A stretch of DNA of 64,000 bases from Planoprotostelium fungivorum. Taxonomy: Eukaryota > Evosea > Variosea > Cavosteliida > Cavosteliaceae. The notes beneath the pieces are model-generated. The model made no database searches. It was not told the DNA's origin and saw only the letters and a list, made by a program, of their open reading frames with translations. A program made the translations under genes and the position numbers. Numbering within the stretch: position 1 is the stretch's first letter; each line of letters opens with the position of its first letter. Location of the stretch: the NCBI GenBank assembly GCA_003024175.1, contig MDYQ01000257.1, positions 124,001-188,000 of the forward strand, given 5' to 3'. This document shows, piece by piece, positions 3,625 through 43,700 of this stretch.

Positions 3625-6600
3625 TCACTCCTCTCCAGTCATTGTCTGTTGTGTACTTCCACAGATGTTCGCCTCATCGTAGATGTCCACCTCATCGCAG
3701 ATGTCTTGATGTGCAGGCGCGGAATAATTCGATGCAGGGGGAGCCCTCTTCTCATCTCTGATGAAGGTCTGGTCATAGATGTTTGTCTTTGTACCCGCCT
3801 TGAGTGTGTGGTACTCGATTCGATCGGGTGAACCGACAATCTTCATGTCTTCATCGTCCATTGACTTGGTGCTGGTCCCTTCATTGAAGACAGTGTCAAG
3901 GTAAGAGCATATCTCTCCCATGTTGGGACGGTCCGCTGGTTCTTGTTGCCAGCAATCTGTGACATCTTTCAGTGTCTCACTCTCCACGACATCGCACCTG
4001 TCATGATCTTGACGTAGAGTGGATCCAATCCATCCAGGGGTAATCTCTCTCCATTCAACACCTGAATCGCGTGAGATCAACGGATGAACGACAGCGAACA
4101 GAGTAACGGATGACATACCTGCATGGCAACGTCTACCGGGGACATCGTTGGCCAAGGTTCCTCCACCATCAAGATCTCCCAAACGAGAACGCCGAATGAA
4201 AAGACTGCACTCTGTCAGGGTCACCGTGGAGATGATCATCTCACCGTCTGATTTGTTCGAGTACTGTCGATATCGAATGGCTGCGGGGAGTGAATAGACG
4301 CAGGGGACACGGTCTTCACCTTCAGGAGCCATCCATTTGAGAGGACCGATGGATGTCTGAGTCACCGAGGCTTCGTCTGTGTTCTGTTGTTCTCTGCTCA
4401 TTCCGAAATCGGCAACCTGGATGCTGTCGGCGTGACACTCTCTCCTCTGTTCACCTTTGCTTCCTTCCATCGAGTCAGCAGGATGTTCCTGACGGCAAGA
4501 TCTCTGTGGATGACCTTCTCCAAGTGGAGATGGAGCTGCAGTCTCTCAGTCTCAGATCCTCTCGTTTCCCCTCACCATTCCCCTGGCGATGCCGACGATG
4601 AAATTGAGTTTCTGAAGGTGACTCACGGGCTCTCTCCTGAGATAATTGTACAGTGATCCACCCTCGCAGAATTCACTGTTGTTCATCAATGGATGGATGA
4701 ATAAGAATGACTCACGTGACTAAACTGAGAGGCGAAGGGGGGTATGTGATTCCCTGTTGATGAGTTTAGATTCATCTCAAGTTCAACACGATTTCGATTT
4801 CGTGATGGACTTACCACGAAGGTGACGACGTTAGGATGGGCTCTCAGACCCTGTATGATGCCGACCTGCGAGTCCTTTCAATCTTTCCGTGGTGAATGCC
4901 GCGCTCACCTCTCTCAAGAAATCGACCACCTGTCCCTCCGTCACACTTTCACTTCGAATTTGCTTGATCTATTCTCTGTCATCCACCATCACTCGTTCGA
5001 CCTTCTCACCGCAACAGATAACTCCCTCCATTCGGCCTTGTAAACGACTCCGAATGATCCACTGCATCACGTCGATATCGATGAACACGATCATCGATGA
5101 TGATGATGATGATGACCTCTCACCTTCCGATCTCGTGGACGCTCTTGAATTCCTATCCATCTCGATCAATCGACACATAAAACTTTAAAGACTCACACTC
5201 CAATCTAAGATGGATTTCTTGGCGGCTCCCAACTGGATAGCAGAGAAATCGACGCTGGAGAATTGGGACTTCATCCCCCTGTGAATGTGATATCTCCTCA
5301 CGAGAACTACAGCGAGGGCGAGGACAACCAAGACGAACAGTCCGATACCTGGTCGTAGTCAATCGTGGTGAATGATTCACGAAGAGATCTCACCGATAGA
5401 TACACCCAGAACGAGAGGCCTGTTCGTACCGTTGATGTATCGATCTACAACGAGGGCAGATGTTGCATTGGTGGGTTTCAGGACACAAATCACACTTCCG
5501 TTGCTGTAGATGGGCTGGCTGTCGCTGGGGCAGAGGAGGAAATCGCTGCTGGTGGAATTATTCACAAAGACACTCGCCATCGGTGAAGCATAAACCTGAT
5601 GAATATCATCCTTTCGTCTCTCCTTTCGTCTCTCCATTCATCTCTCACCTTATCTGCCGAGCTGAAATTGACACGAGATAAATCAAGTGTACCAGTCTGT
5701 TGACTGACAGCCGTGCCGTTGACGGAAGCATGATTATTATCGAAAGAAGAATCAGACAGTGCCAACTATTCAACGTCAAATGACCTCATTTGTAGCACCC
5801 ACCGCATTGACAGAATAGATTCCTCCTCCGTTTCCATCGTTCGCAGTGTTGTTACTGAACGTACATCCCGTCACGATTGCACTCCTTCCACTCCTCTTCG
5901 TCGTTCCATTGATGTGAAGCGCCACCGCACCACCTATCGCTCGTCAGCTTCTACCTCTGCCCCCCCACCTTGACTCGCATCGTTTGATTTGAAGATGGAA
6001 TCGACGATGACCACGTCGGAATCTGCCGATGCGTACAGAGCACCGCCTTGATTGGTGGCGGTGTTTTCATCGAAAAGACAAGAGGAGATGTTATTCTGGG
6101 AGGTGCGGCTGAGGGATAAGATGATTGCAGCACCGTTGTCTCCTCGGTTGGAATGGAAGGTGTTGTTGTGCACTCGTACGTTCTGTACGTCTCCACTCAA
6201 CCACAGTCCACTTCCGATGTTCCGAGATATGTCAGAGCCGTCTATGCTGATCTACAACGAGTCAGAAGGAGGAGTAGAATGGTGAACATCTCTCACGTTC
6301 CCGATATTGAAGCGAGTCGCATCGAAGTAGATGGCACCCTTCTGTTCAAATGAGTCTTTCACTTCTCTTTAACTCACCTGAGACGATATGTTGTCTGTCA
6401 CGGTACTATTACTGATTTGAATGTCGTTCGTGGAAGAAGGAAAGCTGAATCCAGCACCAAACTGTGCCTCGTTTTGGGTGACCACCGTGTCGATAATTCT
6501 CATCTGTTCTTCACGTCAGCTCCCTCCATGCTTCTCTCCTCACCCTTCCAATGATCGACGAAGCTTGAATACCGATCCCACCGCCCTGATAGCCGGCGTA

Positions 6601-10470: not shown

Positions 10471-12023
10471 CTATTGCGATGGTCGATCCACATTCCTCCA
10501 TACATCGTTACAGTCTTCATCCTCCGTGAGAGATCTCATTCCCCTCTGTCTCCTCCACTCGTTCAGCTGCTCTCGTGCGGGTCCCTCTGATTCTAAACCT
10601 TTATATTGAGGAGAGTGTCTGATGTAGGAAGGTGTGGGTTCTACATCTCTCGCCAGACAAGCCTTCCCTTCTCCTGCAATGCATCGTGAGATATAGATCG
10701 TGGTGAAGACTATGAAGGATGAGATGAGCACCTTTGCACTGACATTTGCCTCCATATTCTGCCGGTACGTTTTCCGCTCCCAACTCATCACACAAGAGAG
10801 TATCATATCCTACACCCGATCAGCATCATCATCGTCACGATCCGAGTCATCGTCCATACCTGACCATCCTTTGATCTGAATCTTATCCGTCGTGTTCTTG
10901 TGCAACATTGGACGAATGAGAGACCATATTCCACTGAATAGCATCGGAGAATTAAACATGAAACTCTTTGACAGCATCTCCGGGTAATAATCTTGATCGA
11001 TCTGCGATACCAAGGTGAAGAGGTGAGCTACCTTCCTGAGGTACGTCAGCGATCGTCTACAACGTTGTAGATGGATGACCTGTGACCGATGCCACAGCCT
11101 GCCAGATCGATGAGAGTGACGGTTCGGTCGACTCTTCTCTTCATTTTCATCGAATTTTCATCCAGTTTCTGGGTCTGACTCTCCATGGTCCAGACGTGAG
11201 TGAGTACCACCTGGAAGTTTCAGATACCTTTTCGTACGTACTTTACGTCTCACTTCGTCGGGGGTAATGTTCTGGCTGAAGAAGTGAGGGTCAATTTTGC
11301 CAGACTTTTCCCAGTATGTAGTCCTTCCATTTTTATCTCTGTGAGACGAAGAGTTATCTGCCACTGTCCTCCAAAACCTGATCGTGTCGGGAGAAGTCCA
11401 TCACGATGATGATCAGAGCGTCACCTTCTGTAGGGTTGCTGGAGGGTCAGACACATCTCACTCGCGCCGTAGCAGTCTCTCCAGATGCACATCTTCAAGA
11501 ACATGTCGGTGGCCTGAGTGACCTGGATTCGTATTGAGATGGTGATCATTGGATCCGTTTCATCCTCACGTCTAGATTTCTCGCCTTAAGGTAACGCATG
11601 AGGAGACGATCTGGCCAGGGGGAATCGAGTGCTGACACTTTTGGGTCCCAAGGATAAGCGGGGGGCTGAGGAACTGCTGGTGCTGCGTCTGTGAGAGTCA
11701 GATCGCATCATCGGGCGACGACATCATCACCTTCTCCTTCGTCGTTAGGTAGATTCTGAAATCGAGGCGATGTCTCTCTCCAATGCTTCACGTGTTGAAT
11801 TCCGTGGCTCTTCAGCCATTGCTGTTGACGATCAACATCGTACGTCGCGCTGTCATCTCACCTCGTCCTTCTGATTCTGTCTGTACTCTTCCACTCGATT
11901 CTTCAAGAGCTCTCTCATCTTGATTAAGAGCTCCATCTCTTTTTGTGTTATAGGGAATTCCTCGATGCCATGTTCCACGGAGGGATCTTGTCGAGGGAAG
12001 AGAGGTGCCTGCATCGCTACCAT
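10471..12023 (-). CDS. Sec14-like CRAL-TRIO lipid-transfer protein
   Basis: Phosphatidylinositol-transfer-type protein. A charged helical N-terminus (KEMELLIKMRELLKNRVEEY) leads to a CRAL-TRIO N domain (DRLLMRYLKARNLD, then TDMFLKMCIWR). The lipid-binding fold follows: DKNGRTTYWEKSGKID, TVTLIDLAGCGIGH, DYYPEMLSKSFMFNSPMLFS, IWSLIRPMLHKNTTDKIQI and VPAEYGGKCQCKG, all in family order. About seven introns of 33-60 nt join cleanly. One at about 11043-11087 contains a perfect TCTACAACGTTGTAGA palindrome. The start is uncertain: I take the ATG at 12021-12023 in the frame of the first sure exon, but that frame is open up to about 12100 and an extra 5' exon is possible. It is head-to-head with the plus-strand gene at 12124, so the promoter is shared or very compact. 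Confidence 0.88.
11056..11071. repeat. Intronic palindrome TCTACAACGTTGTAGA (Sec14 gene)
   Basis: Perfect 16-bp self-complementary word inside a 45-nt intron of the Sec14-like gene, starting about 7 nt after the donor in the sense direction. Confidence 0.9.
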
Positions 12024-15003: not shown

Positions 15004-15015
15004 GATGAGAGCCAT

Positions 15016-16812: not shown

Positions 16813-17342
16813 ATTATATAAACCTGCATCGATCTTTCTAGAGTGTCTTGTATGATGAGTGCCTTGTGTACGATTGTTTCGTGGTGTCTCTGGAAGGTGG
16901 GTGTGACGATGGATCAGAATGTGATGATGGAACATTAGACATCAGGGTGATGTTCACCCTGTTCTGAGATTGAGTACGAAGAGACGCAGGCGACGTTCAC
17001 CGATTACTTGTTCATCTGCTCACGCGGTGTGAACCTTGACTTGAAAATACCTTCATATCTTTGTCCATTGACTTGCATTCTTCTGAAGGGACTTCAATCA
17101 ATCATTCCATTCACTTCACAACCGCTCGGTCTACGGTAAGTTAACGCGACGTTCTATCGTTATCTATGATCCATCCAATGGGTTCAAGTAAATCAGCTCC
17201 ATTGACTTCTATTTCCTTTACTCGAATTCACTGCACTGATTGACGTCTTATGAGTCGGAATGCAAATTTTCCGAAGAGGTACCGTACAGCTCAAGGTATA
17301 ATCTCTTCGCACCAGCAGCAGCGACACACACCAGACTGTAAC
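16813..17342. other. Intergenic region with a short perfect hairpin
   Basis: About 530 bases. It contains CAGGGTGA-TGT-TCACCCTG at 16943-16961, an 8-bp stem with a 3-nt loop about 130 bp after the stop of the repeat protein; this may be a 3' UTR structure. Further on there is an AAGGTATAATC box near 17294-17304, about 45 bp before the ATG of the ubiquitin-like gene. Nothing else recognised. Confidence 0.4.
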
Positions 17343-17657
17343 ATGGCCATCAAAGTTGTACCCTTAGCCACCGGCGAGGTATAGACGCGCGATCATCGTG
17401 ATCATCACCAGCTCATACAACGCCAGATCATCGACATCGAAGCGAGCGATGTTGGAATGGTAAAGAGTCAGATCTTGGCCATCAAGGGAATCCCGATGGA
17501 TCATCAAGACATCATCTGTGAGGGAAAGGCATTAGAGGACGGAGTGCAATTAGAAGACGGTAGCACGGTGCACTTGTCCATGGGCCTGTACGGAGGTTGC
17601 GGCTGTGGATGCAAGATCTGTGGCTGTGGAGGAAATTGTAAATGCCAGATCATTTGA
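17343..17657 (+). CDS. Ubiquitin-like domain with cysteine-rich, CaaX-ending tail (copy 1)
   Basis: Two exons, 17343-17378 and 17427-17657, 88 residues. Residues 1-69 align by eye to ubiquitin: VKSQILAIKGIPMDHQDIIC matches the helix and GIPxDQQ turn, GKALEDGVQLEDGSTVHL matches the GKQLEDG region, and it ends SMGLYGG where ubiquitin ends LRLRGG. A 19-residue tail, CGCGCKICGCGGNCKCQII, follows directly, with seven Cys in CxC spacing typical of metal-thiolate proteins. The last four residues CQII place a Cys at -4 with an aliphatic residue before the end, as in prenylation motifs. The protein may be cleaved after Gly-Gly to free a metallothionein-like peptide, or remain whole and be lipid anchored like plant MUB proteins; the sequence does not decide. 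The paralogue is at 48033. Confidence 0.85.
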
Positions 17658-17768
17658 AGGTCTGAGATAAATCATGTGCTTGTATCATTCAGCGCAAATT
17701 TGAGTCAGTGCGATCGCTGTGATGATCATAGGTGATGACTGGATTTCATTCGAACACGAGCTTTATCT

Positions 17769-20634: not shown

Positions 20635-23600
20635 TTATTTCTCGGCCTTCGCCGTGCCCGATTGAGAGGTCATAGAGTAGAAGATACCCTTTGGATTGGC
20701 CAGAAGGTTATCCGGTGTATCAAACTCGGCAACTCTTCCCGCATCCAACACGACGATGCGATCGTAATCCATGATGGTGTGGATGCGATGTGCGATGGTC
20801 AAGACCGTCGTGTTCTTGAACTCTTGACGAATCGTCTGCTGGATGAGCGAGTCCGTCTCGAAATCGACCGCAGCCGTCGCCTCATCCATGATGAGAATCT
20901 GAAAAATAAATTCAGCCATCTACACTCGTGTAGATCCCCATCACCTTCGATTTCCTCAAGATGGCGCGAGCGAGACACAGCAACTGCCTCTGTCCCACGG
21001 AGAAATTCTCTCCTCCCTCCGTCACTGGTGCGTCTAATTTCTCCGGCAAGGTCTCGATGTCTCTGGCCAAGTGGACACTCCTCAACGCGTCCCAGATCGA
21101 GCCGTCTGACGATTCAGTGAACGGATCCATGTTCGACCGAACGGTTCCGGTGAACAATGTCGGATCTTGCGGGATGATGGACAATCCCCGACGTAACTGG
21201 AGGAGGTTCGTCCGAGAGATGTCGTGTCCGTCGATCGTGATGGAGCCAGAGTCCAGCTCCACGAAACGGAAGAGGGCGAGCATGAGGGAGGATTTTCCCG
21301 CGCCGGTTCGACCGACGACGCCGATCTTCTCTTTCGATTGGATCTTCATCGTCACTCCCTGGTGGGGTCAATCACGTGTGATGATTTCAAGTGATGTGAT
21401 GATGTGACGATGTGATTGGGTTGTGATTCGATGTGTTGGAATTGTGATGATGAAGTGATGAAGTGATGAAGTGATGAAGTGATGATGAAGTGATGATGAA
21501 GTGATGATGAAGTGATGATGAAGTGATGATGAAGTGATGATGACGATGATCACCTTCAACACGAGGTCTAGACCAGGTCTGTATCTCAACTTGACGTCCT
21601 TGAACTCGATGACACCATTCTCTGGCCAACCGTGTGGTGGTCTCTCTCCCTGATCCACTGCAGTCTCTTCACTGTCGATGGCAGCATATCCGTCGATTCT
21701 CTCCACCGAAACCATCTGAGTCTCCGTGTCCGTAACCGTACGTACCAACCAACTGTACACGTCATCACACGTCATCACGTACGACATCGTGACTGATCTT
21801 CACGACATCTCACCTGAGGGTGCCGGTCATGGATAGACCGTAAGACAACATGAGTCCAACAGATCCAGGGTCCAAATTCTCCCTCTCGATCACAGCAAAG
21901 ACAGTCGATATCGACACCACGGTCGCTCCAATGAGATCCAATCGAAGTGATAGCCACCGATTGGCCACCTGACGATGACGTCATCTCTTGAAATCTCCGT
22001 GAAATTTCACCTGTCCGCAGTAGAAGGCCTGGTTGTTCGTGTCCAATCTTCTGTTGTTGATCTCGATGAAATCAGACCTCCTGTCGTAAGGCTTGATCGT
22101 GTGTACACCGGCCAGTGTCTCTGAAAACTGAGCGTAGATGGGAGATTTCGAAATGGATTCCAATCTCTTGAGTTCTCTCGAAGAGAAGAGGTAATACTTT
22201 TGGATGTAGCGGTAGACGTAAGCTGGAGGGGTCAATCTACAACGGTGTAGATGGACTCACCGAGGGGAATGAGAGCGGTGAGGAAGGGTGGGATGATGTA
22301 ACTGATGACGAAGATGGACGAAGCCGTGTTCATGATGGAGCCCAGGGACATACCTGAGCACGTCAATCTACAACCCGCCAGGATTTTCCTTACCGATCGA
22401 TCTTGGTAGGGCATCATCCAGCACGTTGACGTCTCTTGAAAAGACATTTAGAACTCTTCCGACCGGTGTCGTGTCGAAGAAGGCCGAGGGTGCTCTCACA
22501 ACTGAGTTTTCGATGAGTTTTCTGTGGAATTTTGTGCTGTAGGTACACACCTCTCTGGAGGATACGGTTGTGTAGGGCCGTTGCCGACGTAATTCCGGCG
22601 TAACTCACGCCGTAAGCTCGGATGAATACGAGAACGGAGCATCCCATGGAGAGTCCGACGTAAATTCCCAGGTAAAAGTACGGACCGTGTATACGCTCTG
22701 CGATGCTGGAGGCCCAGTGGGACAACCAGAAGTCACTTGCCACGCGACCCGTCTGTTCCAAGAACTGATGACGTCATCACGGGAGATCTCGCGGAGATTT
22801 CTCACCTGGTTGATCAACACACCGAGAGGCAGTATGACGAAACCCATGGACAAGAAATAAATCTTCCACAGTCTCCAGCCGATGCTACCGATGCCTGGGA
22901 AATTTCAGAGATTGTTCCGGATATTTTCCAAGAAATTTCACCTCTCTGTTCGTCGGAGATGATGCGAAGTCCTCCCTTGGCAGGCCCTCCGTTCTCTTCT
23001 TTCTTCTGTTTTTATTTTAATTCAATTTATTCAATTTTCATCGTTTGATAAATTCTCACGGCTTCTGGTTTCTTGTGGACTCCGTTTCCACTCTTTTTCA
23101 ATCCGTTTCCATTCGAATTTCCGTTCGAAATTCCGTTGGATTTTCCGTTGGATTTTCCGTTCGTAGCTTCCACCTGAACGCCGTCAGTGACGTCATCGAT
23201 CTACAACGCTACCTCTTCCACGTGATGCTCAGGCTCGGGCGATTTGACGTGGGCCGTAATCAGACCGGAGAAAACTCCTTGAGAATCCATCAACTCCTTG
23301 TACGTCCCCATCTCCGCCACTTTTCCCTCCTTTTTCCGTCAGATTTCTCCCAATTTTCACCGAGTTTCACCTTCATCACCACGATGAGATCGGCCTTGCT
23401 GACAAATTGGAGCTGGTGAGTCACGAGGATTCTGCTCTTCCCTTCTAATTCTCCCGTGATGCAATTGTCAAAGATGGATTTACCAACGTGAGCGTCTACA
23501 GCAGATAGACAATCGTCCATCAGGTAGATGTCTCTGTCTGCGTAGACGGCTCTCGCGAGGGAGACCCTCTGCTTCTGTCCACCGGACAAATTGATACCTG

Positions 23601-26521
23601 GACCCCCGTCATTTCTCCGGAATTTCCGCGAAATTTCACCCTTCTCTCCAATCTCGGTGCTGTCACCGTGGGGTAACATGTCGATGTCGGCACGTAACTC
23701 GCACACTCTCAACACCCTCTCGTACTTCTCTTGATCAAAGTGTGAACCGAAGACAATGTTCTCTCTCAGCGTTGCATTCTGCACCCAGGCCTGCTGAGCG
23801 ACGTAGGCCTTCGTTCCGTTCAATTGGGCCGTGCCCTTGAGTTTGGGAATGTCACCCAGTATGGCGGACAGGAGGGAAGATTTACCGCATCCCACGGGGC
23901 CCACCACTGCGACGAGTTTCCCGCGCTTGAAATCGATGGTGATGTGACTCAAAACGGGCGGGAAAACATTCTCGTCCCAATTCCAAGAGCCTGATCCGTG
24001 TGAAATTTCGACGAAATTTCGACTCACCGTCTTCCAATTTGACAGCCGAGGGAGTGTTACGATCAGAAGTGACGCGTACAGCTTGTGGATCTGATTCTTC
24101 GCTGGCCAAAAATTTGATCAATCTGTCGGTCGACACTTTGGCTTCGATGAGAGAAGTGATGATGTTGGGCAGCATGTTCATGGGGAAACGCAGGATATTG
24201 AAGAGAGCCAGGGCCGAGAAAGCGACCTGTACCGTTGAGCGTTGTAGACGGAAGATTCTAGGAAATTACCTCGGCTGACAGGTCGTTACCCAGCAGGGTG
24301 TAGACAGCGAAGGTTACCGTGGATACTAATAGAGGAGAGGCCATCCAGAGGAAAATAGCGACAGCACGGACCAATAGACCCTTCATCATGATATTCACCT
24401 GTTTTGCGTGAGTTTTCCACGGAATCTTCACAACTTTTCACCTCCGCCTGACGAATGTTGGCGATTCGCTGAATGAACGAATCTTCCCAGGCGAAGAATT
24501 TGATGATGCGAATTCCGTTGAGGATCTCGTTCATTCCCTTCGTCCTCATATCTCTCTGCTTCATGACCTGGAGACGTAAATCGAAATCTCCGTGACATTT
24601 CACCCACTTCCTTGTGTAGATTGGCCAGGTACTTGGATATCCTTGCGTTGAGTGGAATGAGTAGAGCCATGACACCGATACCGGCGAGAGCGGAAACTCC
24701 GAGGAGTCTCCACAGCAAGAAGAGCGACCCAAAGATTTGGAACGGGGCAGACCAGATCATGTGCAGGAAGGGAATCAATTCCTGGAATTTCTGTGCGTCG
24801 ATCGATTGTAGATTGACCATTGCACCGATCGATTGGGACTGGCGGGATTTGTTCGAAAGGTCGAACGACTTTTCGTACACGATGTTCGTCGTGGCCGTAC
24901 GTACCTCGAAATTTCCGTCAATTTCACGCGAGATCTCCCCCTCTCTTCACCTGCATTCCCACGTTGTAGCATTCGTAAAAGTATTGATTCTGGAAGAAAG
25001 AAGTCAACAGCATGGAGCCTGACAGAGCTGCGACTAATAATAGACCCTGATAGGTTTCCCCCGCGTCTTCCTCTTTTCCACTCGATTGGATGAAGGCGAC
25101 GACTTTCCCAAGCATGATGGGGCCGACAAATTGGGACAGATCGTTGCCCAATTTAAAGAGACCGCCGAGGACGAATTTACGACCGAAAGATCTGGCAATG
25201 ACCTTCCAGAAGGATGGCCTGGGGGTTTCAATCGAATGAAACGTTGTAGATACATACTTGGGTCTGTCCTTTTCGTTCACCCATTGGTCACGGAAGACTT
25301 GGTTGACTTCCGCGGATCTGAGATACTGGGAACATCAATGTCACGTCAATATCATGTCTGGATGCGTATTACGTATGGACCGTGTACGTACCTTGCTGAG
25401 TATGGGGAGATCAGGTTGTTGTAGAGCTCTTCTGAATCCCAATTTCAACAGTGGGTTGATAAATTGGAATAAAACCCTGGATATGATGTTACTCTCTCCC
25501 GCGATGTCTCTCTGCGATACGGTCAATCTACAACGCTTCATTCGAATGAAACCCACTCCGGACGTCTTGCTCAAGAGCTTGTCAGTGACACTGTCATCTC
25601 CTGTGTCTAACTGTTCGTATCCCTTTGGTTTCTTATCGACAAAGGTGGCGATGATGGCCAAGATGGTGGAGGCAGCGACGTCCATGATACTGATGGTCAG
25701 ATCGTATCCGGACTCTTGACCCTGATTGGAATGAGATGACTCATCTACAACGTTATAGATGGGATTCACCCTGCGAGTGAGAGCGAGGGTCGATTGGAGG
25801 TATAGAGAGTTGATGACAAAGGTGGTGATGCACCAGATGCGAACGACTCCCGTATTCTTCATGCCGCGAGAGTATTCTGCGGCGACTAAGAAGAGGGCGA
25901 AGAGCTGTAGAGGATGAGATGATGGTGTTGAGAAAATGGGATGAATACCCATGTCAGGGAGATGTGAACATTGGCTACGGTTTCGTAGAGATAGAGTCTA
26001 CCGGCGAAGAGGTGATAGATGGTCTGAACGGCGGGAAAGATGGAAAGGGCTGTAATCAACAACATCTGAGCGACGTGATGAGTATGATTACGAGTTGAAG
26101 AATGTGATCGGATGACGGGGTTCACCTTTAACGCTTGTGTCTTCGAGTATGGGATACTGTGCTGTGTCTGTCTCCTAATGCTGAGATACTTCCATCCACC
26201 CAAAACGATCAGAGCGAGGGAATTGACACCAAATAGAACTCTGTAACATGTATCAGTGCCGTCCATGTTCTCTCGATCTCGCTTACGTGTCTATGAAGCA
26301 CAATGGAAGGACTCCATCATGGACAATGGTCTGCATATCATGTCAATCTAACCTACACATATAGAATCCCACCAATTTAGAGTCACCACAGTAACTAGGC
26401 ATGTGATGCAGTGTCCCTTGCGATTCGAAAAATTGACCAAGACCTCCCACGATCTACAAACGTCCCCGAAAATACCCGACCCGAACATCGTCACGATGAC
26501 ACCAGCCGTGTGACACAGCAT
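20635..26521 (-). CDS. ABCC/MRP-type full ABC transporter
   Basis: Membrane efflux pump of about 1,450 residues with TMD0-TMD1-NBD1-TMD2-NBD2 order. The N-terminus [15 protein letters not shown] and the helices to about 25750 form the extra TMD0. TMD1 spans about 25280-24290. NBD1 (about 23990-23390) has Walker [10 protein letters not shown], signature LSGGQKQR and Walker [14 protein letters not shown], with Asp where a catalytic Glu would be, as usual in ABCC proteins. A low-complexity linker ([20 protein letters not shown], about 23160-23100) precedes TMD2. NBD2 has [17 protein letters not shown] and [12 protein letters not shown] and ends at 20635. Substrates are likely organic anions or conjugates. 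The start is tentative: ATG 26521 gives [16 protein letters not shown], and an ATG slightly upstream is possible. There are about 20 introns, many built from the palindromic words described in the findings. Confidence 0.93.
21445..21550. repeat. GATGAAGT / GATGATGAAGT microsatellite in an ABC-transporter intron
   Basis: About 105 bp of tandem 8-mers and 11-mers, spliced out between the NBD2 exons carrying GLDLVLK and MKIQSKEK. It makes this intron several times longer than its neighbours. Confidence 0.85.
22235..22252. repeat. Intronic palindrome ATCTACAACGGTGTAGAT (ABC gene)
   Basis: One mismatch from a perfect 18-bp palindrome. It fills almost half of a 38-nt intron whose sense strand reads GTGAGTCC, the palindrome, then TGACCCCTCCAG. 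Confidence 0.9.
25743..25760. repeat. Intronic palindrome ATCTACAACGTTATAGAT (ABC gene)
   Basis: Near-perfect 18-bp palindrome (one mismatch) in a 48-nt intron of the transporter, again beginning 8-9 nt from the donor. Confidence 0.85.
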
Positions 26522-26610
26522 TTCATCATAAAGGGCCTCGATCATCACCGACACCATCATCACCACCGTCTATGGTTGTCAAAGATGAGAGGACGAACGT
26601 GAGAATGTCT

Positions 26611-28888
26611 TTATTTTCGTCTCGTCTGTGGGGTGACGTTGGCTGGCTTTTCACCACAAGAGTACGATCCCAATATCTCCAAATAAACCGTCGCCTGTCT
26701 CAACTCCTCGATCGCCTTATCGAAGTGCGGCGAATCAGAATGTCCTTGCACCTACACCATCGTCAGCGATCATCGACACCATCGTCAGCGATCATCGACA
26801 CCATCGTCAGCGATCATCGACACCATCGACATCATCGTCCGTAGGACGCTCACCTCCACGTAGAATCGATAGTTGAACTTGGACTCCTTGTCTGGGTACG
26901 ATTGGATGATGGACAAGTTCAATTCGTACTTGGCAAAGATGTTGAGAGCGCTAGCGAGGGCTCCGGGTTTGTCGGTGGTGTCCAACAGAACCGAAGTCTT
27001 GTCGTTTCCACTGGGAACGAGATTTTTGACGTGACGGGAGATGACCAGGAACCTTTTCCCGTCAGATTTCCCACGGATTCTCCATGGATTCTCCACGAGT
27101 ATCTCACCTCGTTACGTTGGTGGAAGAGGTCTCGATGTGGTTCTGAAGGACGTGGAGGTTGTAGTTGCTGCCCGCAATCGTGTTCGCGACGCAAGCTGCG
27201 GTACCGGTGGTGTCTTCGGCTACCATCTGAGCTCCTCTTGCTGTGGAGTTGACTGGAATGAGAGCTTTACCGTTGGCGTGACTGTCTAACCATTCTTTAC
27301 ACTGCTCTAATCCTTGCGAATGTGAATAGATTCTGTTCCAAGGTGAATAAAGAGTTGTAGAATGGAAAGAATGAGAAGATGAAATGGTTCACGAGTGATG
27401 GTGAGAGAGGTACAAATCGACATGAATGGTCATATGACAGACGAGAACGATGCATCACAGAATCAATGAAACGTCTCACGTTTGTACTTGTGATAGAGTG
27501 ATGGATGGATCTTTCACCATGAAGGCGAAGGAGATAGGGAGATAGATCTCTCCACAGATCTTCACTCCCTCTGATTTCGTCAATAGATCCATGTGTCGAT
27601 GCACTAGACCCGTCTTGCTATTCTCCACCGGTACCATGCCGTACACCGTCTTGTTCGATAGCACGTTGGAAAACACCTGGAATTTTGAGTTGACGAGTTG
27701 TAGACGGACGGATTTGGGACCTCCTCGATGTCACCGCAGGGCAGGTAACGGACTTGGTTCATGTTCTGTCCCCGTCCGAAATATTTGAGCGCAGATTGTT
27801 CAGAGAAAGTTCCGGGGGGGCCCAGGTAGGACACCTGGGGTCCCTTTGACCTCTCGATCAAGTAGAGAACCTGCAGAAATTCGACGGAAATTTCGCATTC
27901 GAGTGAAATTCACCTCTACCTCCTTGGTGAGAGGTACAACGTATTCTCTGTACAATTCTTCGATTCTTCCTGGTTCCAACTTGTACTTTTTGTCTGAGTC
28001 CTGCACACCAATCTCTTGTCCATAAGTGGATGCCTTCATGTGAACTCTTCTAAGCAATTTCGCCTCCACCTTCTCTCTTCAGTTGCATCTACAACGAGCC
28101 ATTTCACCTCCGCGTTGGTCAACTTCTTCATGATGCCATCAATGTTACCCTCCTCGGCCAATTTGGTGTAACCCTGTGGATCTTCGCGAAATTTCACCTC
28201 GGCTACGTATTTTCCAAAGTGAATCCGCTTCGATAGAGCTTGGAGGACGGCGATGTCAGTCGTGACGGCAGAGCCGTACCTATTGTAGATGAGCACGAAT
28301 ATTTGGAACGCTGAGGGTGTCATGACTCACTGTCCATCGTCGCCTTCTTCGAAGAAGCGGGGGACCATGAGCTTGAGGTAGATGTCTTTGATGCGATCGT
28401 TGATGTTGATGGTGTTGGGATGCATCGGACCGGTGAAAGCGAAGAGGGGAAGGAGTGGTTTGGGTAGAGCTGCGGGATAGAAAGGATTTTCGTCTGGACT
28501 CTCGTACCTTCTCACGAGAGAGTGAAGCTTTTCTGTTTCCTGAAGGAGAAATCAGATGAACAGAAGCATATCATCACGTGATTCCACTCGATAACTTGGA
28601 TATCCAAGACATAGAAGTGCAATCGTCACCTCGAATAGATAATCTAAGAAACTCTTGCTGCTAGGTAATGGAGTATCTGTGAAGTGAACTCCACCTATGG
28701 AGGATGTCAATTTTGATTGATCACAAGATCGATGTACCTGCTTCATAGACGATCTTATTCTGCTTCCATTGAGCTCTCTCAATCAGATTGAAGATTATCG
28801 TCTCTTCTTGACGAATCAATTGTTCTCTCAGAAAACTGAGATTCAAAGCGTCCTCAGACACAGAAGAACTTCCCACACGTGCTGTCAT
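26611..28888 (-). CDS. Fused chorismate mutase - prephenate dehydratase with ACT domain
   Basis: Phenylalanine-pathway enzyme: chorismate to prephenate to phenylpyruvate. ATG at 28886-28888 gives [20 protein letters not shown]. The first half is the eukaryotic ARO7-type allosteric mutase: [79 protein letters not shown]. From about 27850 it becomes prephenate dehydratase: [47 protein letters not shown]. An ACT domain ([20 protein letters not shown]) follows, ending at TAA 26611-26613. The ACT domain should give feedback control by phenylalanine. All introns join in frame. This is not the bacterial P-protein layout, in which the mutase part is a short helical domain of about 90 residues. Confidence 0.9.
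26755..26820. repeat. 22-bp minisatellite, three units
   Basis: CACCATCGTCAGCGATCATCGA repeated three times plus a partial copy (unit shown is the full 22 bp split as CACCATCGTCAG and CGATCATCGA). It lies in the last intron of the mutase-dehydratase gene, between the ACT exon ending FYVEV and the exon beginning QGHSDSP. Confidence 0.85.
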
Positions 28889-34647: not shown

Positions 34648-37600
34648 TTATAGAGTGAAGGGAGGTTGATATTGCCTGACCAACGCCGCTTGGCTTTGGA
34701 TGTATTGTATGACGAGATCGAACCATTGTTCCTGCTCTCCCCTCCATTTGTTTTTTCCTTCCTTCAGAAACAGAGAGAAAAGGGAGCGAAAGTGTCTCTG
34801 CAAGAGTCCTACCCCAACGGCAGCCTGAGGGTGTTGCAGACGCATCCTAATGCGACCTGTATCCATGGATACGATGCCAGACATGACTTTCACATCGACT
34901 CCGTTGCATGTGATGATGATGGTGCTGATGTCGACCAGTCCACAATCGAATGCAGTGAGCCTCGCTCCCTTCTGCAGGCTGTGGTACATCAACCACTTGG
35001 TTCCAAATCTGTTTCCCGCATCAATTTTGAGACCGTACGACGTCACGGCATTACCCTTGTGCGTAGGTGGGTCCCCTCGCCGTGGAATTGACAGAGTTGC
35101 CATGGATACTGACTGGCTGATTGTTCATGGTGTGATACTGATTTCCCTTGTACTGCATCAACTTGGGGTAAAACGAAGCGGCGATGCATGCATCTACAAC
35201 GCTGGGGTCACGTGACCATCGGTCGTACTCCAATGGAACCACGAAGAAGGGCGATCTGGGTCCTTGAAAACGGCTCCTAGGGTGATGTCACCTTTTACGT
35301 ACGACATCTCACGAGATATCTCACCTCTGGATCAGTCTGGCCTGGTGTGGATCATCTACAACGACTAGATTACAATCGATGAGTAGAGACATGAACTGCT
35401 GTCTCAATTCTTCAACTGATACGAGGTTTCGACCGTTTAGGTACAATTTCCTGCAGAATTCTCCTTCTTCTGATGGACTGTTTCGACACACATCACGCCA
35501 GCGGTAGTACGTGTGACACATCGTCAAAAAGTCACTGTCACCTATCGCGTGTCATCGTACGTACAAAATGGGGTGAAAGCGTATACCCTTTCGGAAGAGT
35601 AGTTTCGCGTTGTACGCTTCGTTTTCGCTGCCGAGTGGCGAGTTGTAGATGGACTTGGAGGAGCAAACGGCGGCGATGGTGAGACCGGCATCGAGACATC
35701 TCGTGAGATGTCATTTTCTTCCATCTACAACGCGATATTCACCCGAACATGGTACAGTAAATCAATAATTTTCCCAGATAAACGTCCAGTGGAAGCTTCG
35801 ACAGATGAACTCCCAAAGGGGTCAGATTCTGCATCACGTCAATCTACAACCAGCCACACCCGCCTCACCTGCTCTGCATCCAACGCATCTACCTGGATTA
35901 GACTCTGTATGGCTCTCTGTATGTTCTCTTCCAACGGAGGATCCAGAGCTCTCGACAGAACATATTGAATGTCCCCCATCTGACAACTCTTCACTCTCAA
36001 TATGAGATCTTGCAACGACAATCGCAGCATCTCCGGTTGTTGATTCTCCATCATCTTCTTATCGTGTCTCTCCTTCGTGTACAAGTGGAAGGCAACTCCG
36101 GGCTGTACTCTTCCCGCCCTTCCCCTCCTCTGTGCGGCATTTGCGCGGGAAACGAATCCCTCTACCAATTGGGAGATCTGTCTCTTCTCATCAAAGTAGA
36201 TCTCCTTGTGTTTTCCCGTGTCAATGACGCAAGTGATGTCCGGTATAGTGATACCTACGTACGTAAGACCGTGCGACACGGTCGCATTCGAATGTCACCC
36301 GTCTCGGCGATGTTGGTTGCCAGGACGATCTTTCTCTTTCCCTTGGGAGGGGTTAAGAAGGCTTCCTCTTGCTTCTCGGTAGGGATGGAGGAGTGCATGG
36401 GGTACAGCAGCCACGAATAACCGCCGAAAACTCGATGACTCTGGAGCGCCTCGTGCATCCTGCGGATCTCGTGGATACCGGGGAGGAAGATGAGAACGGC
36501 TCGATTGAAGGAAGAAAACTGGGGATCGTTATCGATCTACAACGAGTCAGTGGCAGGTTGTAGATGGATCGCACCCTCTCCAAAAGACGTAAAATGAGGT
36601 CGTAATTGATCTTGTAGGGATCCATGATGTCGAGCGTACGGTACGTAGACGGTGAGTATTTCTGAGAATTTTCCTGGGATTGTGCCACGAAGTCTTCCTC
36701 TTCCCCTGGTTTGACTCGATTCTTCTTGTACTTCCTCCTCGCATACTCCGAATCTGATGACGTCATCACTCGAAATCTCGTAGAAATCTCACCGACTGAC
36801 AGGTTGTAGTGCGTCACCTCTACGACATCTTCCAGGAAAAAAGAATCCACCGGGAAAGTTCTACCCGGCACCTGTCGACATTTCATATCATGTCGACACG
36901 ATGTACCCCCTCACCCTGATGATGCTCGGCTTGGCCACATCTCTCATGTAATTCATCACACGCTCTTCATCCATGGTGGCAGACATCAGTATGACCTTCA
37001 GATCTCTCCTCTTCTTCATCAGTTCTTTCAATCGAATGAGGATGAAGTCCGTGTCTAGGTTACGCTCGTGGATCTCGTCTACAATGAGATGTGTCATCTC
37101 TCTCATGTCGGAATGTTCTAGATCTTCCATCATTCGTAGTACGATACCAGTGGTGGCAAAGATGATGCGGCTGTTTTTTCCCGCCTTGCGTTCCAATCGA
37201 ATGGAGTAACCGACGTTGCTGCGGTGATTGCCGACGCTATTTTTAGGCTCTCCGAGCTCGGTGGAGACTCTGTGGGACAGAGATACGGCGGAGATACGTC
37301 GGGGTTGGGTGCAGTAGATCTTCGGTGCTTTCCCTGGGAATCCCGTGGCGATCCAATTCTCCAGTACGTAAATGGCCGTCTGGGTCGATTTTCCACATCC
37401 TATCCCCGTCAGAATTTTCCGAGAATTTTCCACGTCGACACACCCGTAGCACCAGATATGATCAGTAGTCTCCCCGTACTGTTATCCACTCTCGACAATA
37501 GTTCATCGTCATCTCTCGAATCGTTCAGGACCTCCATGGCTTCAGATAAGAATGGCTCTTCGTTGAGAAAGTGATCGATCTCTCTCTTGTACTGATAGAT

Positions 37601-40103
37601 GGGGAGAGCTTTGCGGTACTGCAGCATCTCTTGGTACGATTGACGATCGAACAGATCGGAGAGTCCGTGGTGGGATGACGTCATCGTCTACGTCGAGGTT
37701 ACGTCGGAGTTACGTCGGAGTCATCACCTCTCGATTCTCTGAAATTTCGTTGTCCGTTGCGATGGAAGATTGTTCCGTAGATTTTTCCGGTTTCTTCGCT
37801 CTCGTCGGTGCTTCACTCATGATCTGCACCTCGTCATGACGATCATCCACCTACAACGAGCCACACCCCCTCGGTCAGCTTCATGACCGTCTCTAGTTTT
37901 TCCCGCCTCTTCTTTCTCGCTTCTCTGTCCCTCTCCTTCTCGAGGCTATCCCACAGTTGACGGTAGTGCTTCGGTAACAGCCTCTGGGGCTGTTCGCGGC
38001 TCATTTTAGGTTCGTATTGTACCATCCAAAATAGGGCCAGAGTGCATGCGTATTGTCGTGCCTGATCTTTCGTACGACAAGCTTCGTTCTCTTTCATCTC
38101 GAAGACTTGATACTGAAATCTTTGTGAGTTTTCCACGAGATCCACGTCACTCTCACCTGCTTCGTCTTGTGTCGCTTGAGGATCAATCTACAACGATGTC
38201 AGTGAAATTTCGGTGAAATTTCGTTGTCACTTGGATCGGAAGGACTGGTAACCGATGGGACGATCTTCCCACACAGTGTCCACGCCGGAAAAATATTTCG
38301 TCAAATTATCCTGCATCAATCGAAGGGGAGTGTAGCCGGTGGTACCCGTGGGTAGGTCGTGGACGACGGTCTACAACGAGTCACTTTCTATTCGTGAGGA
38401 GTACGTCACCTTGGTCACGCTGCTGCTGGTACTCTCTTCGGTCTCATTGGATTGAAATAGTTCTCCCAACATATCTCCCTCTTCTATTCCAACTCAATTT
38501 CCAGTATTTTTCTACGAGATTTCACCTTTACCCTCAGGTATAGCTGGCTCCAATGGGGTGTCGACATTTGCGTCTTCTGTCGACGCAGGTACATCTTCCT
38601 TCTTCTCTTCCTCGATCAACTTCTTCTCAGCAAAGACATCGCCGAACTCTCCCTCTTGACTCTCTCCCTCTTCTGTCTTGTACTTGCTCTCTTCCGCTTT
38701 CAATCTGTCTACGTCACATGACGTCATCGATCTACAACCGACCTTTTCATCATCTTTTTCTGTCTGATTTGGTTGAGATGGTCTTGGTATGCCTTCTCTG
38801 CTCTCTTCTTATCGAAGAGATAATCAGAAGTCGTGTCGTCCAGCTGTTCAATCGTGAGACATAGTAGAAAATATATATCGCGGAGATCGATCATCTACAA
38901 CGCATACTTCACCTTCGTGCGGAATTCTCTGATGACGTCATCACTCGCTCTCGCCTTCTGCAACTTGATGATGTGCTTTCTCAATCGAATGAAACGCTGG
39001 GTCAGTATCTCTTCAGGGTCCATGTTGTCCTCTTCAGCTCATGAGTCTCTGTCTCATGTGCATCTCTCACCCTCATCTGGACTATCATATTCTGGCATCT
39101 TCACTTGTCTGGTTTCTTGTCCATCCTCTTCATTCTTGTTCTGACGAGTGACAGCTCTGACCACCGCCTTCTGCTCCCTCTTGATCTGCCTCGTTGTAGA
39201 TGGAATCACCTCAGGTACTCCTTCCCGCCACTCGCCCTCGGGTGATACTCTATCGTCTTCACGTATCGATGCGTACTCCTTGTACATCCACTGGTTCGTT
39301 CCTCCCTGGGCCTGTACAACGGCGTACTCTACGACCTGCGAAATTTCAGCGAATTTTGCGTGTTACGTACGGACCTGTTCCACGGAACCGTTCTTGCTGT
39401 CACGTATGGACTGCAGGACTTCCTCTTGTGTCATGCTGGAGGTAAGAGGTGTCTCTCGTAAGAGGTTGAGGGAGTGGTAAGCTTGTGCGATCTTCTTCTC
39501 TCCTTCGTTCAGATCAGTGACGCCGCTGATGTCATCTTCGCCATTTGTGAGCACGATGATCTGTCGCTTGGCCATCTGAAGAACTTGTTCCATCATGGAG
39601 GTGTCCGTTCGTAGAAGGTTATCTTTGAGTAGACCGTTGTGGGCTCTCATGTCTCTCTCTAAGAAGGAAAGTTCTCTGCAGGTGTTGGTGATGCAATGAT
39701 CATATGGAACAACGGTGTTGTGTTGAGAAATCATACCTTGTGGTGACACGTTCGGCTTTGGGGACGATTCGTTCCAGATAGTCCTTCAATTGAAGATCTT
39801 CATCTTCCCAACTATCCGCCGAATCTGAATCTGAGTAAAAAACGGTTCGGCGTCACATCCATTCCATCGACTTTGAATAGATATCATCTCTCCTCGATGC
39901 AACATATGGAAGAGGTGTTCACCTGCAGCGCCCGCCTTTGACGTCGCACTGTCTGTTACAGATACTGGCTGTGCCTCTACCACTGGTTCTGGTTCTGGCT
40001 CTGGTTCCTTGGCCAGCACAGCTTTCGATGCCACAGAAGTAGTGGCGAACCCTCTGGGGTCAGGTCCTTTCTTCTTAGCACCTGCCTTCTTCTTTGGTCC
40101 CAT
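34648..40103 (-). CDS. DHX29/DHX57-like DExH-box RNA helicase
   Basis: Long translation-type RNA helicase. The N-terminus MGPKKKAGAKKKGPDPRGFA with GFATTSV is characteristic of DHX29/DHX57 relatives. A charged, coiled N-terminal half (about 39750-37850) precedes the core. Core motifs: SGATG|CGKSTQ (about 37440, split by an intron), HLIVDEIHERNLDTDFILI (DEIH, about 37085), LMSATMD, IVLATNIAET plus GITIPD, and QRRGRAGRVQPG (about 36130). The winged-helix and OB-type C-terminus follow (KSCQMGDIQYVLSRALDPPL, DACIAASFYPKLMQYKG, GTKWLMYHSLQKG), ending at 34648. DHX29 helps 40S subunits scan structured 5' leaders; the same job here is inferred. More than 15 short introns, at least eight with an ATCTACAACG or CGTTGTAGAT word. 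Exon borders in the N-terminal third are approximate. Confidence 0.85.
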
Positions 40104-40792: not shown

Positions 40793-43700
40793 ATGCCTAT
40801 GAAAGAGAGGCTGAAGAATCTTCTGCATCACCATCACGAAGATCATCATGCCTCTCATTCGTCCACCACTCCTCCACACAAAACACGCTCACGCCAAGTA
40901 AGTTACGAAGTCCCAGCATTTCGCACGGCTGAACAGGTACAAATCATCTTTTCAATCATCATCTCTGATTGGATCCATCCAGATGTTAGCAGCGACACAA
41001 GTGAATTTCAAATCCGAAGACGATTCGGGAGACAAAACAGAAGACGAAGAGACAACCACCTATGCGAGAGAAGATGGGATCGCTCAAAGAGATGAAAGGT
41101 GATTAACCGCGAGTAAAGTGAAATCGGTTTTCATTCCGCGTGCAGCAGACCAAGCCAAGATTCCTCTAGCCGTTGCCAGCCTCAGTGAGTACAGGTCTCA
41201 CACTCGCGTTAACATGCTCGCAGAAACTGGGCTCTGAAGAGAGATGCGAGCAGCTCTGTCATCAGTGACACCAATCTCGTTCGCAGAGAGGGGCAAGCTA
41301 TGGAGAGAAGTGTATGAACGACGAATAAATCCCCAAAATGAGCTTTGTCGCTTTAGAGGGCACTTTTTGCTGCGGGGTAAGGTGTCACCGAAAATCCAGC
41401 GAGAAATTATCAGAGTCTCTACGGCCATAGAACAACAGCAACGCATCAGCTGTCTCTTTAAGGGGGGCTGATGGAGTCTGTGACGAAGAAGAGGAGACTC
41501 TATAAATCAGAGTGAGCGTGATGGGTGTAATTTGGAGGTAGCTGATATGGCGAAGATCTCTTCTAGATGCGGGGTCAGAAGTTAGTATAGAGGAGTTTGC
41601 ATTAGATTGCATCGCTGACCCTCTTGTCATTGCCAATGGTGATCAACGATTCGACTTTGTCAACAGGTCTTTTCTGTCTAGATTTGGAGAGGTAAGCATC
41701 GGGCACGCACTCAATCCAAATGCCAACGCAGACAGGTGACCAATGTCAATGAATTATTGGACCTTCTCTGGGATCCCTCGAGTCAAAGGGATACATTTTT
41801 GAACATGTTCTCGTCTTCTAGAAGGTTTGTCTGCTCATCGTTCTGTCGAAATCAATGATTGATCAGCGCCTCAGATTTAGCGTGACGGAACAATCATCAG
41901 AACAGATGACAGACCCACACAACTTCATTTTCATGTTTTACCTGCGCAGAAGATCAACCGAGCTGAGCTTTGGGTGTGAATCACACGATTCTGATGTGTC
42001 ATTCATGTCTAACCGTCTCCTTCGTTCTCAAACTACTCGAATGACAATTGAACCTTCCCTCACTCCATACCAGATCTGACTTAAATTCGTCCGGGGACAG
42101 TGGCATGCTTGGGGAGGGAGGTGATCGAAATCCCTTTTTGTCCAACATCCATTCTCACTCTCTTCAGTTTCCAGACACGGGATATATCGAGCTCGTGTTC
42201 ATTTCCATCGATATAAACACGGTCCAGGTGACCTCATCTCATCATCCATCCGCATCGACATTCCATCGTGTATCTGACGATGCATCGCAGGTGTCGTGTT
42301 GACTTTCAAAGAGATTACCAGATCGAGTTTCGTCGGTACAGTTGTCCACACTCGCCGAGCTTCAGTCATGAACTGCAGTCCACTCGCAGATGCAAATTAC
42401 GTCGCAGTTCTGCGACACAACAAGTACAAGTTCCTGGAGGTGAAATCTCGCGGAGATTTCAAAAGAAATTGATTCGTACAGCAAGTCGCGCTGACTACAA
42501 AAGTCATGTCGTGTTGCATTGAGGCCGATTCAGATAAAAATACGATCACGAGATTGTGGTGCAACACTGCTTTTGCCAATCACATCAAAATGCACCCGGG
42601 TGAGTCATCCAAAATCTGCGAGTGCGAAACATGACGTGGGCAGATGATGTCGTCGGCACGAGGATGACGTCAGAGGACCAACCTGGATTGTCCGATCTCA
42701 TCGCGAAATTATCGCAGATCTCAGACGGCGCGCCACTCATCCTCTTCAGCCCCACCTCCATCTTCGCTTCTTCTTCATCCGGTGATTCATTCATCTACAA
42801 CCCTCCCGTTCTATTCTTAGATCCTTCTCCCCTCGCATCACCGTTGACTCTAAAAATAGAAGAAGGAACAGAATACATGATCACCATCCACTTATCGGAA
42901 GTGGACAACAACTCCAACGTCAGGAGATACGTCACCTACACTTCAGACGACACGCAAGAGCTGAAGAAGCTGGTTCAAGAGCGTGAAGACCAACTGCTGA
43001 TGATGAACACCATCTTCGAGAACCATTCCATCGTCATGGGTGAGTCTACAACGTTGTAGATGAAGGAAATGTTGAAGGGGGTAGCGGCTGTCGACGTCGA
43101 CTTTGAAAGGAAGGATTTCACGTTCGTGGTAGCCAATGATGCTCTCACGAGTTATTTTCCGGAATTTGACGAGAAGAAATCTCTCGTCGGGGCCCACGCA
43201 GGTGACATGCGTAATACGTACGTACCGACGTAACGGTTTCCCAGCGGATCTCCAGATGTCGGAGAGGGAGATCTCTCTGTGGATCGATCAATTCCGAATC
43301 GCAAAGGAGAGTTCTAAAACGGTGAAGCACGAAGTCCAAGTGAGAGATCGACTGTTGGACATCAGCGTAGTGTACGTACCGGGTTCCACGAACCGATTCG
43401 TCTATTTTGGTGGGTGACGTCACGTGACGTGATGATGACGTCATCAGCTCAAGACATATCCGAGACGAGGAGACTGCAGGAAGATTTGAGGAAGAAGAAG
43501 GAGAATTTAGAAGACGAAGTATCAGAGAGAACGAAAGAATTAGAGATGGCATTACAAGTCAAGACACGTTTCCTAGCCACCATGTCCCACGGTGAGTCCA
43601 CATCCAAGTCACGTGACCCGCTACGTCACGTGACAATACGATGACGTCATAACTCACGCGTTGTAGAGATCAGAACGCCCCTCTTCGGTATCATGGGCAC

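Follow-up and report, generated by a model that had tools for sequence, protein, structure and literature searches.

A short, often palindromic word in the introns of Planoprotostelium fungivorum is rare within about 800 bp of start codons

Genes and Gene Models

The window analyzed here is a 64-kb stretch of the Planoprotostelium fungivorum genome. The gene model at 20635-28888, whose translation is free of stops, fuses a prephenate dehydratase with an ABC transporter (Pfam E-values of 1.3e-56 and 5.3e-39, respectively). By our own reading of its sequence, the transporter probably belongs to the ABCC subfamily. The transporter and its five paralogues displayed 46-64% identity when aligned. 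Six other proteins of the window were compared with Pfam, either whole or by their first part, and five of the six matched at E <= 0.001 to the CRAL/TRIO, PAS, calponin homology, Topless zinc finger and serine carboxypeptidase families, with the PAS match just under the curated cut-off; the sixth gave no match.

The window was analyzed together with 200 kb of contig C1 (264 kb in total), five paralogue loci and 38 kb of held-out loci, while genome-wide counts were taken over the whole assembly of 36.9 Mb in 471 contigs. Genes were predicted using a purpose-written, iteratively trained semi-Markov gene finder, and the word described below was never used in the training. In the 264 kb, this ab initio procedure returned 77 genes with 1128 introns, of which 780 were 37-50 nt long (median 44 nt). 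The gene models are credible but imperfect. Nucleosome-spaced introns were considered and rejected, as exon lengths were broad and the spacing of all intron pairs was nearly flat.

Abundance and Form of the Word

Many of the predicted introns carry a word with a half-site of about CGTTGTAGAY and the core TGTAGA; in the palindromic form two half-sites have the CG in common. The word was counted as the 10-mer CGTTGTAGAT, as an 8-mer core (CGTTGTAG or CTACAACG) and as the palindrome ATCTACAACGNTGTAGAT. Allowing at most one mismatch, the 10-mer occurred 64 times in the window compared to 3.8 expected. The 8-mer core was identified in 32 of the 279 predicted window introns, distributed over ten gene models, which is in agreement with the first-pass annotation of about 30 introns in at least eight unrelated genes. 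Three gene-model settings were used, and 24 of the 25 places named there fell in a predicted intron in at least one of them, the exception being 25526; at some of the 24 the word is imperfect. Over the 264 kb the core was present in 124 of 1128 introns, and 130 of the 988 short introns (30-80 nt), or about one in eight, contained the word. Genome-wide (36.9 Mb), the palindrome was found 512 times in the forward and 485 times in the reverse orientation, and its reversed control was never found. Several window introns had been described as carrying a full palindrome, which holds for 11056 and 43045; the words at 22235, 58970, 59563 and 60031 are near-palindromes and the one at 25743 is imperfect (Table 1).

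The concentration of the word in introns was borne out by counting the 10-mer, in either orientation, by compartment: introns (68.4 kb) had 69 copies, exons (173 kb) had 25 and intergenic DNA (22.6 kb) had 2. Exons nevertheless exceeded a synonymous-codon shuffle (17 vs 2.3 for ATCTACAACG and 8 vs 0.1 for CGTTGTAGAT), with enrichment in both orientations, and therefore "introns only" would be too strong a description. The exonic copies were positioned within coding sequence in all frames. A protein motif was rejected as their origin, since all reading frames were used; some of them may be missed introns.

Use of the word differed between classes of introns. It was present in 15.4% of introns of 37-40 nt and in 3.0% of those longer than 120 nt, and only one of 75 CATCATCA-type introns contained it, compared to 129 of 913 others. 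A spacing of 5-12 nt after the donor had been proposed and was not upheld. Among half-words in introns of 30-60 nt, with palindromes and 3'-end words excluded, 27 of 50 started in that interval compared to 22.1 if evenly placed, and this position mostly reflects lack of room.

Intron copies with zero, one, two and three mismatches to the 10-mer numbered 69, 72, 88 and 471, respectively, while 25 permuted control words gave 0.4, 6.5, 73 and 489. The 72 single changes in CGTTGTAGAT were concentrated at positions 1 (18), 3 (14) and 10 (29), with 0-4 at each other position, and the TGTAGA core was nearly invariant among these copies. This sharp mismatch spectrum and the position-specific tolerance therefore indicate a G-N-TGTAGA-Y site of defined tolerance, not an ageing repeat.

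Table 1. Introns of the window that contain the word, by position within the 64 kb
Position	Strand	Length (nt)	Form of the word	Other features
6252..6296	-		3' end = CTGACTCGTTGTAG	exon then begins AT
11036..11079	-	44	full palindrome	
22223..22260	-	38	near-palindrome ATCTACACCGTTGTAGAT	ABC-transporter gene
22354..22393	-	40	half-word	position common to five family genes, word in two
23174..23212	-	39	half-word	followed by TGACGTCA
24227..24269	-	43	half-word	
25219..25257	-	39	half-word	also TTTCATTCGATTGAAA
25722..25769	-	48	imperfect palindrome	
28070..28107	-	38	half-word	800 bp from start codon, closest in primary gene models
35700..35742	-	43	half-word	
36537..36574	-		3' splice site	ATCTACAAC near donor
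37824..37866	-	43	half-word	1 mismatch to 10-mer
38188..38230	-		3' splice site	two GAAATTTC words 11 nt apart
38371..38409	-		3' splice site	
38844..38912	-	69	half-word	
43040..43084	+	45	full palindrome	
43592..43666	+	75	3' splice site	also TGACGTCA and TCACGTGA
44396..44436	+	41	half-word	
45247..45287	+	41	half-word	overlaps donor (GTGAGTTGTAGATGG)
47132..47171	+	40	half-word	
47204..47253	+	50	half-word	
47534..47575	+		3' splice site	
47621..47657	+		3' splice site	
51355..51395	+	41	half-word	also TCACGTGA
58559..58599	+	41	half-word	
58959..58999	+	41	near-palindrome	
59558..59597	+	40	near-palindrome	
60022..60060	+	39	near-palindrome	

Distance from the Start Codon

Among short introns, none of the 236 located less than 800 bp from the predicted start codon contained the word, compared to 130 of the 752 located beyond. 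The onset was visible in the next two intervals: from 800 to 900 bp the word was present in 5 of 32 introns, and from 900 to 1000 bp in 4 of 25. When the labels were permuted within genes (37 genes), 18.5 near words were expected and the minimum in 5000 shuffles was 8. The rule, which was absent from the first-pass annotation and is new, also appeared in plain k-mer counts. Among 3664 strand-collapsed 8-mers, GTTGTAGA was the best discriminator between far and near gene DNA (p = 1.9e-23), with 225 copies in 182 kb of far and 3 in 59 kb of near gene bodies; it also headed the list for introns alone (0 near vs 65 far). The 9-mer CGTTGTAGA, counted on either strand, occurred 169 times in gene bodies, the first positions being 574, 792, 801, 808 and 854. 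Exonic 8-mer cores followed the same course: the 27.7 kb below 500 bp had none, the 10.1 kb between 500 and 700 bp had 3 and the 135 kb farther out had 51.

What matters is distance and not intron rank: none of the 57 introns that lay within 800 bp with a rank of 4 or higher had the word, and 3 of the 12 introns of rank 3 or lower lying beyond did. The rule is also directional and follows transcription, as 8 of 112 introns less than 400 bp from the stop codon still held the word and introns with a neighboring gene's start within 1 kb displayed no visible depletion (6 of 39). Among introns more than 1 kb from any start and less than 200 bp from the stop there were 0 of 22; the 3' end of genes is therefore not free of restriction either. 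For CATCATCA-type introns themselves, no significant dependence on start distance was detected (p = 0.5), though only 2 of 123 were located within 400 bp.

Word use increased with gene length (rho = 0.47), an effect due in large part to start-codon distance. Gene length still mattered when only introns at 1000-2500 bp were compared, of which 25% contained the word in genes longer than 4.5 kb and 11-12% in shorter genes. Genes also differed in word use beyond chance (dispersion 101 on 56 df). No link was found between word use and codon bias as a proxy of expression (rho = 0.08, p = 0.55).

Fused gene models could hide near words. When genes were split harder, with introns longer than 150 or 100 nt forbidden, near introns with the word numbered 3 of 304 and 6 of 373, respectively, compared to about 14-22% beyond 800 bp. 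The nearest of these words was located 221 bp from a start codon. One of the six exceptions is the window intron 25722-25769, which lies about 591 bp from the transporter start codon if the fused model is split. In the held-out loci, none of the 37 introns below 800 bp and none of the 24 between 800 and 2000 bp held the word, which was present in 11 of the 55 farther out, and two held-out genes of 3 and 5 kb were without any word; a further 62 introns (7 with the word) belonged to genes whose 5' end was unseen and were not fully placeable. Thus, the rarity of the word within about 800 bp of the start codon is firm, while it is less firm that full density is reached immediately past 800 bp.

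Companion Words

The commonest companion words, TGACGTCA, TCACGTGA and GAAATTTC, are zero-spacer palindromes as well, and two of them, TGACGTCA and TCACGTGA, match palindromic bZIP and bHLH sites exactly. They follow the same distance trend more weakly, with 3 near vs 64 far introns for GAAATTTC-like words (p = 2e-5), 5 vs 53 for TGACGTCA (p = 0.004) and 1 vs 23 for TCACGTGA (p = 0.03; all p values uncorrected). Asymmetric variants of GAAATTTC were balanced between strands (16 GAGATTTC vs 17 GAAATCTC). When GAAATTTC-like words formed pairs inside one intron, 13 of 17 pairs were spaced 11 nt apart and the others 22 or 33 nt. Among 55 pairs of palindromic words, the center-to-center distance was 10-11 nt in 18 and 5 nt in 9, in part as overlapping repeats. 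A fixed spacing between the word and TGACGTCA was rejected, as the 3 of 12 pairs at spacing 3 were too few.

Alternative Explanations

The word could act in RNA as a splicing element, bound by an RNA-binding protein and required only far from the cap. Short introns are favored, the distance rule runs in the direction of transcription, and the word is used as a branch or 3' splice-site module. In 37 of 1128 introns, CGTTGTAG formed the 3' end, so that the word served as the 3' splice site, a use unremarked in the first-pass annotation. The consensus of these 3'-end words is CTGACTCGTTGTAG, after which the exon begins with A (frequency 0.97) and mostly continues with T (0.68). Genome-wide, TGACTCGTTGTAGA was counted 826 times and its control not once. 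The longer motif TGGCTCGTTGTAGATGGA leans to one strand, with 40 sense and 8 antisense copies in introns (3'-end words counted) and 1 and 11 in exons, and the TGGC-side prefix was found on 14 of 52 sense and 5 of 43 antisense half-words; these counts hint at some strand preference. Half-words in the free zone, however, were strand-symmetric (52 sense vs 43 antisense, p = 0.41), the forms are palindromic, and exons were enriched in both orientations. The donors of word introns were no weaker than others (5.33 vs 5.32, p = 0.83), and on the same scores compensation for weak splice sites was rejected. Introns with a free-zone word had a branch-like motif in 44% of cases, and the other introns in 48% (raw percentages). 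An RNA-level splicing element is thus unlikely. Of the splicing-factor site proposed in the first-pass annotation, the part that survives is a site for a sequence-specific factor; given the strand counts, the ordinary donors and the tie to start distance, it is not clearly a splicing factor acting on RNA.

Remnants of introners, or of other elements that create or copy introns, would account for near-identical words in thousands, for their TIR-like symmetry and for the words at intron ends, including the TGACTCGTTGTAGA counts given above. The inheritance of introns was analyzed by comparing the six ABC-transporter genes, with 80 introns within the aligned part. At four intron positions common to three to five of these genes, the word was present in only one or two copies each, and the introns with it were no longer. 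The words therefore differ between copies of old introns. At the position of the window intron 22223..22260, which is common to the window gene and four paralogues, only the window copy contained the word. Of the introns at shared positions, 5 of 38 held the word, as did 5 of the 42 at single positions, and unshared positions accounted for 5 of 10 word introns compared to 37 of 70 others (Fisher p = 1). Intron-creating elements whose ends remain as the word, as suggested earlier, thus fail the paralogue comparison, which can judge only the 5 of 10 word introns at shared positions. Such remnants would also be at odds with the missing tail of copies with two or three mismatches, and with exonic copies lying in coding sequence in every frame.

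In an all-against-all comparison of introns, 27 of 1195 pairs displayed similarity across 80% or more of each intron. Four of these pairs were tandem duplicates, while 23 were located at separate loci with 70-94% identity, seven of them with the word in both introns; for example, window intron 22223-22260 and C1 72972-73010 (numbered within L007-L026 joined) matched over 33 nt at 88%. The likeness of the 23 pairs exceeds what the word alone would explain, and some copying between introns may therefore have occurred. Overall, we regard remnants of intron-creating or intron-copying elements as improbable.

A recent biased writing of functionless words into late-transcribed DNA, for example by templated patching, would explain why several unrelated palindromic words have a common territory, why paralogues differ in word presence and why unrelated introns are partly similar. 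It does not fit with the position-specific tolerance and the missing decayed copies, nor with shared paralogous introns that carry the word without a change in length, and we give it little credence.

The palindrome could also form an RNA hairpin, with a 7-bp stem and an ACGT-like loop, drawing donor and branch point together within the intron. Introns with such words (200 of 209 sampled) were more stable when folded (-6.92) than shuffled sequences (-5.84). In introns without them (300 of 846 sampled), there was no excess of folding (p = 0.28) and sense equaled antisense, though palindromes and stems were mildly in excess (67 vs 42.5 for 10-mers and 85 vs 60.9 for 6-bp stems). The arms of the palindrome displayed no covariation. 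Considering the outermost pair only, genome-wide counts were 876 A..T, 684 mixed and 64 G..C, compared to 913, 609 and 102 expected by our arithmetic from arm frequencies of 0.75 and 0.25; mixed pairs were therefore in excess, and the outer positions were independent or anti-correlated. In oriented introns, A..C and G..T were found seven times each. Introns with the palindrome (n = 31) had the same median length, 44 nt, as introns without the word, and GAAATTTC and TGACGTCA have no loop. The hairpin put forward in the first-pass annotation is hence contradicted by both the missing arm covariation and the unchanged intron length, and we consider it highly improbable.

That mis-called starts or introns produce the distance rule as an annotation artefact is very unlikely, because the rule held in all gene-model settings tried, in the within-gene permutation and in plain gene-body k-mers, even though the genes were predicted ab initio and the models include fusions, such as that of the prephenate dehydratase with the ABC transporter.

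A Proposed DNA Site in Gene Interiors

The word is palindromic, its half-sites vary independently and it is symmetric between strands, as in the site of a dimeric transcription factor. Such a site would be expected in promoters or intergenic DNA, and the 10-mer was found only twice in the 22.6 kb of intergenic DNA. Our tentative preference, held with considerable doubt, is that the word is a maintained site in double-stranded DNA, likely that of a homodimeric protein, with a territory of use in the gene interior that starts some 800 bp downstream of the start codon. Observations in its favor are the enrichment, the sharpness and defined tolerance of the mismatch spectrum, the symmetry of half-words between strands, the missing covariation of the arms, words carried by only some paralogous copies of a shared intron, and the distance rule. 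A putative homodimeric DNA-binding protein would read the word on duplex DNA. The word is placed mainly in short introns, at no expense to coding sequence, and less in exons.

In yeast, elongating polymerase passes from Ser5P to Ser2P and H3K36me3. By analogy, the territory of the word may correspond to late-elongation chromatin. The distance at which the yeast transition takes place was not confirmed in the literature searched, including the portion of PMC5810148 that was available. The effect of the site could be to block transcription start inside genes or otherwise to support elongation. Suppression of intragenic initiation would be the most likely job, because such a protein would need to avoid true promoters on the transcribed side; a polymerase speed bump, or anti-silencing as for PATCs, would be alternatives. 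TGACGTCA, TCACGTGA and GAAATTTC, the last repeated at 11 bp, may be bound by additional proteins that share this territory.

Several observations count against this DNA site. The steep fall with intron length would not be expected of a plain DNA site and is accounted for by none of the proposed jobs. A bare site does not account for the 23 alike non-tandem intron pairs, and the strand lean of the long motif and of the TGGC-side prefix hints at some strand preference. The 0 of 24 introns at 800-2000 bp in held-out loci, the leak after harder gene splitting and the 0 of 22 introns near the stop codon also count against it, and the gene-length effect at equal distance and the dispersion between genes are both unexplained.

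More speculatively, and in our view doubtfully, a small vocabulary of palindromic words, located mostly in 40-nt introns, might constitute an address system for the gene interior that is read on DNA and defines the elongation territory. As part of this reading, the words would be rare in the first 800 bp or so and in intergenic DNA, and would occur every kilobase or so beyond. Tiny introns would then be kept in part because chromatin factors land on them. If a DNA site in gene interiors is the true explanation, minimal introns would hold a positional DNA code linked to the distance traveled by the polymerase, which would provide a sequence handle on the change from early to late elongation and a selective reason for keeping very short introns.

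Comparison with Known Systems

The portions of the literature searched (subscription journals and preprints being outside the scope) contained no description of a palindromic intron word whose use depends on start distance. The IMEter work, as far as the excerpt of it goes, separates promoter-proximal from distal introns and describes the proximal signals as diffuse (PMC6374622). The word resembles IME signals, as described in that excerpt, in that the use of an intron sequence depends on start distance within the first kilobase, downstream of the start (PMC6374622). However, IME signals in that description are proximal, dispersed and poorly conserved, while the word is distal, sharp, often palindromic and strand-symmetric. 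An IME-type signal enriched in promoter-proximal introns was rejected, as the opposite was seen (0/236 near vs 130/752 far).

The A/T clusters of PATCs recur with the helical period. According to the excerpt of PMC7725773, PATCs of C. elegans are non-coding clusters of periodic An/Tn that, when placed in introns, shield transgenes from silencing. Compared with that account, the present words are likewise a non-coding DNA feature of introns, and the GAAATTTC pairs at 11 bp resemble helical-period clusters. The ATCTACAACG word differs in being a discrete site with a CpG center.

Introners (PMC9860276) and the symmetrical stwintrons of fungi (PMC8469720) are also symmetric, but the excerpts of these papers describe whole introns. 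Judged by these, both cases have numerous introns that are internally symmetric and related in sequence, and a minority of our introns resemble one another along the greater part of the intron. Unlike introners as described there, the introns studied here have mainly a word of 18-24 nt in common, which at a shared position may be present in one paralogue and absent from another, and element boundaries were not seen in them.

As in bZIP and bHLH sites, zero-spacer palindromes occur together with free half-sites, whereas, unlike such sites, the words are scarce between genes and over the first 800 bp of a gene. Bacterial genomes contain highly iterated palindromes and DNA uptake words. The word resembles these in being short, present in thousands genome-wide in either orientation, and found in inverted pairs, but here it is located mostly in eukaryotic introns and in the interior of genes.

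Words and classes of short introns

The palindrome TGACGTCA was the commonest 8-mer palindrome in promoter-distal short introns (30-80 nt, beyond ~800 bp from the predicted start codon) of the window and of the 200 kb of contig C1 (L007-L026 joined), and 20 of its 60 short-intron copies were placed 3-5 nt ahead of the acceptor. In the same sample, TGACGTCATCAG formed the 3' end of 15 introns. Gene by gene, the use of GAAATTTC-like palindromes was correlated with that of the ATCTACAACG word, the recurrent word under study (rho 0.52). Their spacing inside one intron was 11, 22 or 33 nt in all 17 pairs.

A separate class of introns from the window and C1, rich in CATCATCA/TGATGATG, was also identified, in which the ATCTACAACG word was nearly absent and which was more frequent toward the 3' ends of genes.

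At separate loci, 23 intron pairs displayed 70-94% identity across at least 80% of their length, a likeness that may be due either to words in common or to copying.

Features located in the window and in C1 (C1 numbered within L007-L026 joined)
Feature	Stretch	Position
TGACGTCA intron	window	22765-22805
TGACGTCA intron	window	36754-36792
TGACGTCA intron	window	43410-43447
GAAATTTC-like intron	window	21969-22010
GAAATTTC-like intron	window	23991-24027
GAAATTTC-like intron	window	38188-38230
Look-alike pair	window; window	36754-36792; 21969-22010
Look-alike pair	window; C1	38188-38230; 40270-40308
Long 'intron', tRNA-like	C1	109694-110134
Long 'intron', tRNA-like	C1	152524-152795
Long 'intron', tRNA-like	C1	183205-183416
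Exonic TGGCGGGAA	window	37178, 61440

Three long predicted 'introns' of C1 had a ~90-nt tRNA-like sequence in common (about 95-98% identity). These probably represent tRNA genes lying in intergenic DNA bridged by the gene finder. About 6.6 kb without predicted genes was observed in the held-out loci L034-L035 (joined, 11128-17727); the genome is gene-dense elsewhere.

Enriched words in exons

In window and C1 exons, TGGCGGGAA, an E2F-like word, exceeded the synonymous-shuffle expectation, and GGCGGGAA occurred 26 times versus 3.2 expected, with one Gly/Asn-rich gene supplying about half of the TGGCGGGAA/GGCGGGAA excess. Exons of the window and L007-L026 also showed strong sense-strand enrichment of purine-rich AGAAGAGA-type words, which resemble exonic splicing enhancers.
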